Positions 20,659-30,374 of a stretch of 64,000 bases of DNA are shown in pieces (position 1 is the stretch's first letter; every line of letters begins with the position of its first letter). Source of the stretch: an uncultured Flavobacteriales bacterium (GTDB lineage Bacteria; Bacteroidota; Bacteroidia; Flavobacteriales_E; Vicingaceae). A program made the translations under genes and the position numbers. Location of the stretch: positions 1 to 64,000 of the forward strand of contig CAJQOH010000038.1 in NCBI GenBank assembly GCA_905479915.1, given 5' to 3'. The notes under the pieces are model-generated. The model was given only the letters and a program-made list of their open reading frames with translations. It was not told where the DNA came from and made no database searches.

Positions 20659-20700
20659 ATTAAAAGAACGGTATATCCATTCATAATATTATACAAATCC

Positions 20701-20725
20701 GTCATTGCGGGCTTGATCCGCAATC
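20701..20725. repeat. REP-like 25-bp repeat, left of GIY-YIG gene
   Basis: GTCATTGCGGGCTTGATCCGCAATC starts the unit. Its reverse complement matches the sequence at 21063-21087 at 24 of 25 positions. The core TCATTGCG recurs in the palindrome at 30299-30374. Confidence 0.8.
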
Positions 20726-20750
20726 CCCCAATTATAACTACTTTCGTATA

Positions 20751-21047
20751 ATGGAACGTGGTGGCTTTATTTATTTTATGGCAAATGCTCATAACAATGT
20801 TTTGTATTTAGGAGTTACATCAAATTTACATGTCAGAATTCACCAGCACAAAACCAAAAAATTCCCTAACTCATTTACAGCAAATTATAATTGTGACAAA
20901 TTGGTTTATTTTGAATATTATTCATCAATTGAAGAAGCAATTGGTCGAGAGAAAAATTTAAAAAACTGGAAAAGAGAATGGAAAAATGAACTTGTTGAAA
21001 ACCTCAATCCTGATTGGTATGACTTAAGTGATACAATTGAAAAGTAA
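20751..21047 (+). CDS. GIY-YIG nuclease-domain protein (UPF0213/YhbQ-like)
   Basis: This 98-residue protein consists of a single GIY-YIG domain. FIYFMANAHNNVLYLGVTSN (residues 6-25) replaces GIY/YIG with FIY/YLG and the catalytic arginine follows in LHVRIHQH. The metal-binding glutamate is in EEAIGREKNLKNWKREWKNEL, the standard end of this small family. Proteins of this type are commonly annotated as endonucleases, but few have been tested. The gene is enclosed by near-perfect 25-bp inverted repeats at 20701 and 21063, so it looks like a discrete transferable unit rather than part of a neighbouring operon. Confidence 0.9.
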   Translation: MERGGFIYFMANAHNNVLYLGVTSNLHVRIHQHKTKKFPNSFTANYNCDKLVYFEYYSSIEEAIGREKNLKNWKREWKNELVENLNPDWYDLSDTIEK

Positions 21048-21062
21048 AGTTATTAATAAGGA

Positions 21063-21087
21063 GATTGCGGGTCAAGCCCGCAATGAC
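21063..21087. repeat. REP-like 25-bp repeat, right of GIY-YIG gene
   Basis: GATTGCGGGTCAAGCCCGCAATGAC is the inverted partner of 20701-20725 with one mismatch. It lies 18 nt before the radical SAM gene. The arms of this copy are themselves partly palindromic (GCGGG...CCCGC). Confidence 0.8.
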
Positions 21088-21104
21088 GAAACATCACAAC
21101 AAAA

Positions 21105-30298: not shown

Positions 30299-30374
30299 CG
30301 TCATTGCGAGGTACGAAGCAATCTCGTTTTTGAATCATAAGATTGCTTCACTCGTTACCTCGTTCGCAATGACG
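30299..30374. repeat. REP-like palindrome containing the lipB start codon
   Basis: The outer arms CGTCATTGCG (30299-30308) and CGCAATGACG (30365-30374) are perfectly complementary. The inner arms GAAGCAATC and GATTGCTTC are also perfect, around a loop with TTTTTGAATCATAA. The core TCATTGCG is shared with the repeats at 20701 and 21063. The right arm contains the lipB ATG at 30369. Confidence 0.8.

Follow-up and report, generated by a model that had tools for sequence, protein, structure and literature searches.

A small GIY-YIG nuclease gene between inverted CGTC-tagged REPs: a candidate mobile cassette with lineage-specific repeats

How does a small nuclease gene come to lie between two nearly identical inverted repeats, and could its product be the factor that spreads them? 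The question arises in the window, by which we mean the whole stretch of 64,000 nucleotides analysed here, where an earlier note had suggested that a GIY-YIG protein mobilises its own REP-like repeats. CGTC-tagged REPs, a class set out in 2013 by Di Nocera et al. (PMC3733652) that includes dRS3 of Neisseria and RPE of Rickettsia, were said at that time to lack a dedicated transposase, and the factor behind their spreading was left open. We think it reasonably probable that the locus represents a mobile cassette in which the nuclease recognises the REPs of its own lineage and in which spreading begins with nicking by the nuclease.

The cassette measures 389 bp in total and consists of a REP, the nuclease gene, and a second REP. 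The left repeat (20700-20734, plus strand) and its mate in opposite orientation, the right repeat (21054-21088, minus strand), are A-type CGTC-tagged REPs of 35 nt each that are 89% complementary, with a 26-nt core, CGTCATTGCGGGCTTGAYCCGCAATC, that shows one mismatch between the arms. Each arm also folds into a hairpin by itself, its CGTC tag left unpaired and facing away from the gene, the left one being built of the tag, a 7-bp stem (ATTGCGG/CCGCAAT), a loop, and a C-rich tail. As single-stranded DNA, the left and right repeats fold with -6.4 kcal/mol (z -2.8) and -9.2 kcal/mol (z -4.3), respectively. The early description of a small nuclease gene between near-identical inverted repeats was hence confirmed, with slightly wider arms. 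While the insertion of a homing endonuclease breaks its recognition site and thereby makes the filled site resistant to cleavage, a complete REP is found on both flanks here.

The sole open reading frame inside the element (20751-21047, plus strand) encodes a UPF0213-like GIY-YIG nuclease of 98 amino acids, as judged from Pfam, its residues, and its AlphaFold fold. Its match to PF01541 (E 1.7e-15) lies above the curated cut-off, at 57.5 bits versus 22.6, and the catalytic-type residues Y8, Y19, G21, R29, H33, and E67 are retained, including the conserved Y, Y-x-G, R, and E of the family; in an alignment of 39 sequences, Y8, Y19, R29, and E67 were invariant and G21 was present in at least 90%. 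The AlphaFold model is confident (mean pLDDT 96), and the closest solved structure is that of the UPF0213 protein BH0048 (1zg2), with the GIY-YIG domains of UvrC and Slx1 coming next. BH0048, which shares the fold by structure comparison, and EF2693 (1ywl) belong to the same family by sequence profile, but their records give neither a function nor a repeat association. We obtained no annotation of the protein from NCBIfam, no match to the PADLOC models that would assign it to known anti-phage defence, and no match in the phage collection, and its PHROGs matches were to homing endonucleases and only weak.

A second copy of the repeat core, without a nuclease gene, had been reported at 30299-30374. 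An inverted, REPIN-like pair of REPs indeed exists there, folding as single-stranded DNA with -20.9 kcal/mol (z -6.9), and TCATTGCG occurs four times in the window, compared to a chance mean of 1.0, with two occurrences at the nuclease element and two in this pair. The repeat is a different one, however: the pair consists of B-type REPs, CGTCATTGCGAGGNACGAAGCAATCT, which have only their ends in common with the A-type. Both types carry the CGTC tag beside a palindrome with a stem starting in A-T, are dispersed, and occur mostly as inverted dimers, in line with the definition of CGTC-tagged REPs. Because the pair is B-type and we found no B-type nuclease in this genome (G000), it is not an offspring of the nuclease gene in the window, and this part of the original proposal had to be given up. 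Gene-free A-type copies in G000 are few (G000:C15:23408 and G000:C38:66873), in numbers too low for a copy-number test.

The arrangement of nuclease and repeat recurs well beyond this locus. Three related nuclease genes and a distant one are present in this genome, with a different inverted repeat around each of the three, and the family is patchy in the genus, individual genomes having between 0 and 10 matches. Among 85 loci with sufficient flanking sequence, taken from relatives in the genome and plasmid collections, 45 showed an inverted repeat with a score of at least 17 within 200 bp, whereas 225 control windows, shifted outward by 500-1000 bp, scored at most 16; about half of the relatives carry no strong inverted repeat by this local test. 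With a detector that strictly required a YGTC tag and a 7-bp stem, CGTC hairpins with the tag pointing outward were found on both flanks at 23/135 loci versus 0/120 control windows, and a looser tag test yielded 44/135 loci versus 2/356 controls (p 4e-25). Such flanks around relatives were what the earlier note had staked its proposal on, and the proposal survives in this respect. The range covers Bacteroidota, alpha- and betaproteobacteria, Candidate Phyla, and Clostridia. In Azospirillum lipoferum, Sinorhizobium, and Neisseria, all listed in 2013 as carriers of CGTC REPs (PMC3733652), the nuclease gene is found among CGTC repeats.

Some more distant GIY-YIG genes have surroundings of their own. 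Two subfamilies (L019, L045, L046, L049, and L164; and L022, L030, L036, and L047) are surrounded by repeats of their own types, TGTCAGTTCGAGTG...ATCGAGAAC and TTGTCACCCTGAGCGGAGTCGAAG. At L004 (G000:C7:83731-86967), a distant GIY-YIG gene adjoins tRNA-Met and is bordered on either side by tRNA-like remnants; it may represent a second nuclease lineage, one using tRNA pieces in place of REPs. Next to a tRNA-Met gene at L195 (G015:C9:904500-912000), a 457-bp unit is repeated 10.2 times in tandem, with copies that are 99% identical; each unit contains another GIY-YIG ORF and a sequence resembling a tRNA 3' end. We rejected this array as an amplification of the system in the window, since it belongs to another subfamily, adjoins tRNA-Met, and is devoid of CGTC repeats.

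Upon comparing repeats and proteins across 78 loci, we found that the more similar two proteins are, the more similar are their repeats (Mantel rho 0.30, null sd 0.045; maximum of 999 permutations 0.17). Paralogues of the same genome with different proteins had a median arm score of 7, equal to the chance level, versus 26 for similar proteins in different genomes (p 8e-9). The nearest protein carried the same repeat type in 51 of the 52 loci with an assignable type, where permutation gave at most 29; as these types were set by motif after the sequences had been seen, the Mantel and paralogue tests are the cleaner ones. By sequence, repeat type tracks protein lineage rather than host genome, and host relatedness does not explain the pairing, because paralogues within a genome differ in their repeats while similar proteins elsewhere share them.

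The number of repeats, tallied by pattern searches, also goes with the gene. Among 46 genomes of the family, the three that bear B-type genes (at least 72% identity) had the three highest B-repeat counts, namely 64, 30, and 20, with the next at 16; in G000, which lacks a B-type gene, there are 16 B-type repeats. Across 119 Bacteroidia genomes, CGTCATTGCGAGG, the 13-mer core of the B-type repeat, was present in 18/22 genomes with a B-type relative and in 20/97 without (Fisher 1.1e-7), where a relative was defined by E<=1e-20, a threshold that some relatives outside the B-type also pass, the A-type gene of G000 among them. Four gene-bearing genomes of the class contained no exact B-repeat core. 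Upon inspecting nine gene-less genomes with repeats, we found weaker relatives in 8/9, one of which (G087) has 66 repeats and, in their midst, a B-type gene that is broken. Repeats equally common with and without the gene had been named as the outcome that would speak against the proposal, and the counts are clearly unequal.

Evidence for mobility comes from the boundaries of the element and from orthologous sites. The DNA similarity of the element to loci in G002 (of the same genus, with the element in another genomic context), Paludibacter, and Prolixibacteraceae stops 0-1 nt from the outer repeat ends. The empty sites in close relatives that the early reading had called for were found alongside filled ones. 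On a plasmid of Azospirillum lipoferum 4B, the cassette sits between sufB and sufC, and this site is empty in three Azospirillum relatives whose flanks are 96-97% identical. On Sphingobium plasmids, a single site flanked by fnrL and a response regulator holds the cassette in TomMM7A and TomTYG46, a bare palindromic REP in TomTYG64, a decayed REP in TomTYG74, and neither cassette nor REP in TomTYG72. In the genus, the gap between thioredoxin-like and radical-SAM genes that adjoins hemE is empty in G010, contains a B-type element in G001, and contains an A-type element in G000, the left boundary being identical for both elements (L001/L015). Gene-free B pairs, near-perfect hairpins of about 60 nt, are likewise present at orthologous sites in some species and absent in others. 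We saw no target-site duplication, the mark of classical insertion sequences and MITEs, in the Azospirillum, Sphingobium, and genus alignments, where the flanks beyond the repeats have diverged.

Two further observations concern how such sites are filled and altered. At L215-L233 (riboflavin-synthase-like and fabG-like flanks, genus), one intergenic site carries REP families that differ by species, or none, and this shared occupation suggests favoured sites. At L003:1405-2284 (G000:C15), the nuclease cassette is triplicated in tandem; the interior is missing from copies 2 and 3, in which the repeats remain along with the opening codons and roughly 20 codons at the end. We considered the gene fragments beside L003 as MITE-like transposed copies and rejected this, because the tail of the upstream gene is repeated as well, indicating tandem duplication followed by internal deletion.

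Some of the site data could be read differently. The nuclease might be a regulator of DNA uptake or recombination that cuts REP-bearing single strands, as is reported for Ssn and the NTS repeat in Neisseria, and so restricts or shapes incoming DNA, with the REPs as targets that are not moved and the cassettes spreading by homologous recombination between REPs, an explanation that we regard as unlikely, though deserving serious weight. Recombination between existing REPs would explain why different cassette types occupy one intergenic site across species, as with the A-type element of G000 and the B-type element of G001 behind the same left boundary, and as at another site, where G000 has the element L002 and G002 the B-type element L040. 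The bare REP in some Sphingobium strains exactly at the cassette site of others, and a homologue in Neisseria gonorrhoeae amid dRS3-like repeats, fit this explanation too. On the other hand, filled sites have REP-free relatives (Azospirillum, G010), such that homology at a prior REP is not always available, and regulation of uptake or recombination does not account for the link between the number of repeats and the type of the cognate gene. Hence, the sites with two cassettes (L001/L015, L002/L040) in part favour recombination, whereas the REP-free empty sites favour independent insertion.

Alternatively, some other enzyme, such as a RAYT/Y1 transposase with its gene elsewhere, could move the REPs, and the nuclease gene would be a passenger or homing-type parasite that came to lie within REP pairs. 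Gene-free REP pairs do outnumber cassettes, and the architecture parallels that of REPINs and RAYT-flanking REPs (PMC3116915). Furthermore, the complete Bacteroidia genome G082 holds 565 exact copies of CGTCATTGCGAGG, while we found no GIY-YIG gene of the UPF0213 type in it, only GIY-YIG proteins of the UvrC/DnaQ type, which means that the gene is unneeded for repeat persistence: repeats can outlast the gene or do without it. Yet a lineage-specific pairing of nuclease and repeat is unexpected for a passenger, transposase genes flanked by CGTC REPs were not found by Di Nocera et al. in 2013 (PMC3733652), and classical homing breaks the recognition repeat, while both repeats are complete here. 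We therefore deem a separate mover improbable. Finally, mere chance or a terminator effect, with palindromes around a small gene and no functional link, would draw on intergenic palindromes being common and on some of these hairpins possibly serving as terminators, but it can practically be dismissed, given controls nearly devoid of the pattern (0/120; 2/356; 225 windows with at most 16) and a repeat that follows the protein lineage.

We return to the mobile cassette as our preferred reading. Each nuclease lineage would recognise, in single-stranded DNA, the hairpin formed by the CGTC-tagged REP that belongs to it; this DNA could be lagging strand or incoming DNA, and the enzyme would bind it and nick it at the REP tags, where the spreading process would start. 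The ends left by hydrolysis could be ligated, and the host would supply the joining step through repair or replication and so finish the excision, copying, or insertion. In this manner, the cassette could spread within and between genomes, and so could the inverted REP pairs derived from it without the gene. Because GIY-YIG enzymes cut DNA by hydrolysis and are not known to have a DNA-joining step, self-mobilisation by the protein is something we infer: of the initial suggestion that the protein mobilises its own repeats, a cognate mobile cassette stands on the pairing and on the filled and empty sites, and the nuclease as the mover is a putative role that we read from sequence comparisons. 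If true, mobility would be possible without the joining chemistry of a transposase. CGTC REPs are among the commonest repeats of bacterial genomes, and one small gene that matches each type, lies within it, and comes and goes with it offers a direct candidate; these nucleases are thus strong contenders for the so far missing agent behind the spread of a large class of repeats in bacterial DNA. A wider version, in which GIY-YIG nucleases are dedicated CGTC-REP mobilisers across bacteria, these hydrolytic, non-joining enzymes and host repair together move the hairpin-ended cassettes in a transposition-like manner, and the hundreds of gene-free REP pairs are non-autonomous offspring, we put forward tentatively, as somewhat less than an even prospect.

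A connection between GIY-YIG proteins and genomic repeats has precedent, as such a link has been reported for Neisseria. The Ssn proteins (2025), members of the GIY-YIG superfamily, are reported to cut single-stranded, as opposed to double-stranded, DNA site-specifically at their cognate repeat; Neisseria meningitidis and its NTS repeat were the first case investigated, with regard to cleavage specificity and natural transformation. Like the nuclease here, Ssn is a small GIY-YIG protein of UPF0213-like type linked to a repeat with many copies in the genome, and a neisserial relative sits among dRS3-type repeats. Whereas the Ssn work reportedly concerned cleavage specificity and transformation, we address cassette movement and the match to CGTC REPs by comparative genomics and genomic association. 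The repeats themselves resemble the CGTC-tagged REPs described previously (PMC3733652) in their tag, a stem starting with AT or AC, a short loop, and occurrence mainly as inverted dimers, but no associated enzyme gene was reported for those, while a GIY-YIG gene is associated here.

The closest parallel is found in the REP/REPIN-RAYT (TnpA-REP) systems with GTAG repeats (PMC2817692, PMC3116915, PMC3733652), where a single small nuclease gene also lies within inverted REPs. As here, there are several divergent pairs of enzyme and repeat per genome, the enzyme lineage fits its own repeat, and gene-free inverted REP pairs (REPINs) are the common dispersed form. The element thus has the inverted flanking REPs of an enzyme-specific dispersed family that characterise a RAYT/REPtron, but in place of the HUH (Y1) tyrosine transposase its single ORF contains the GIY-YIG domain PF01541 alone. 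RAYTs are HUH/Y1 transposases with a GTAG tag, whereas here a GIY-YIG hydrolase, for which covalent joining chemistry is not expected, goes with a CGTC tag. The element would function like RAYT/REP yet is no member, as the defining HUH transposase is absent. As judged from these comparisons, nuclease and repeat form a putative cognate, mobile cassette analogous to RAYT/REP with a hydrolytic nuclease instead, and the GIY-YIG nuclease would be the CGTC-REP counterpart, through an unrelated enzyme, of the GTAG-REP RAYT transposases.
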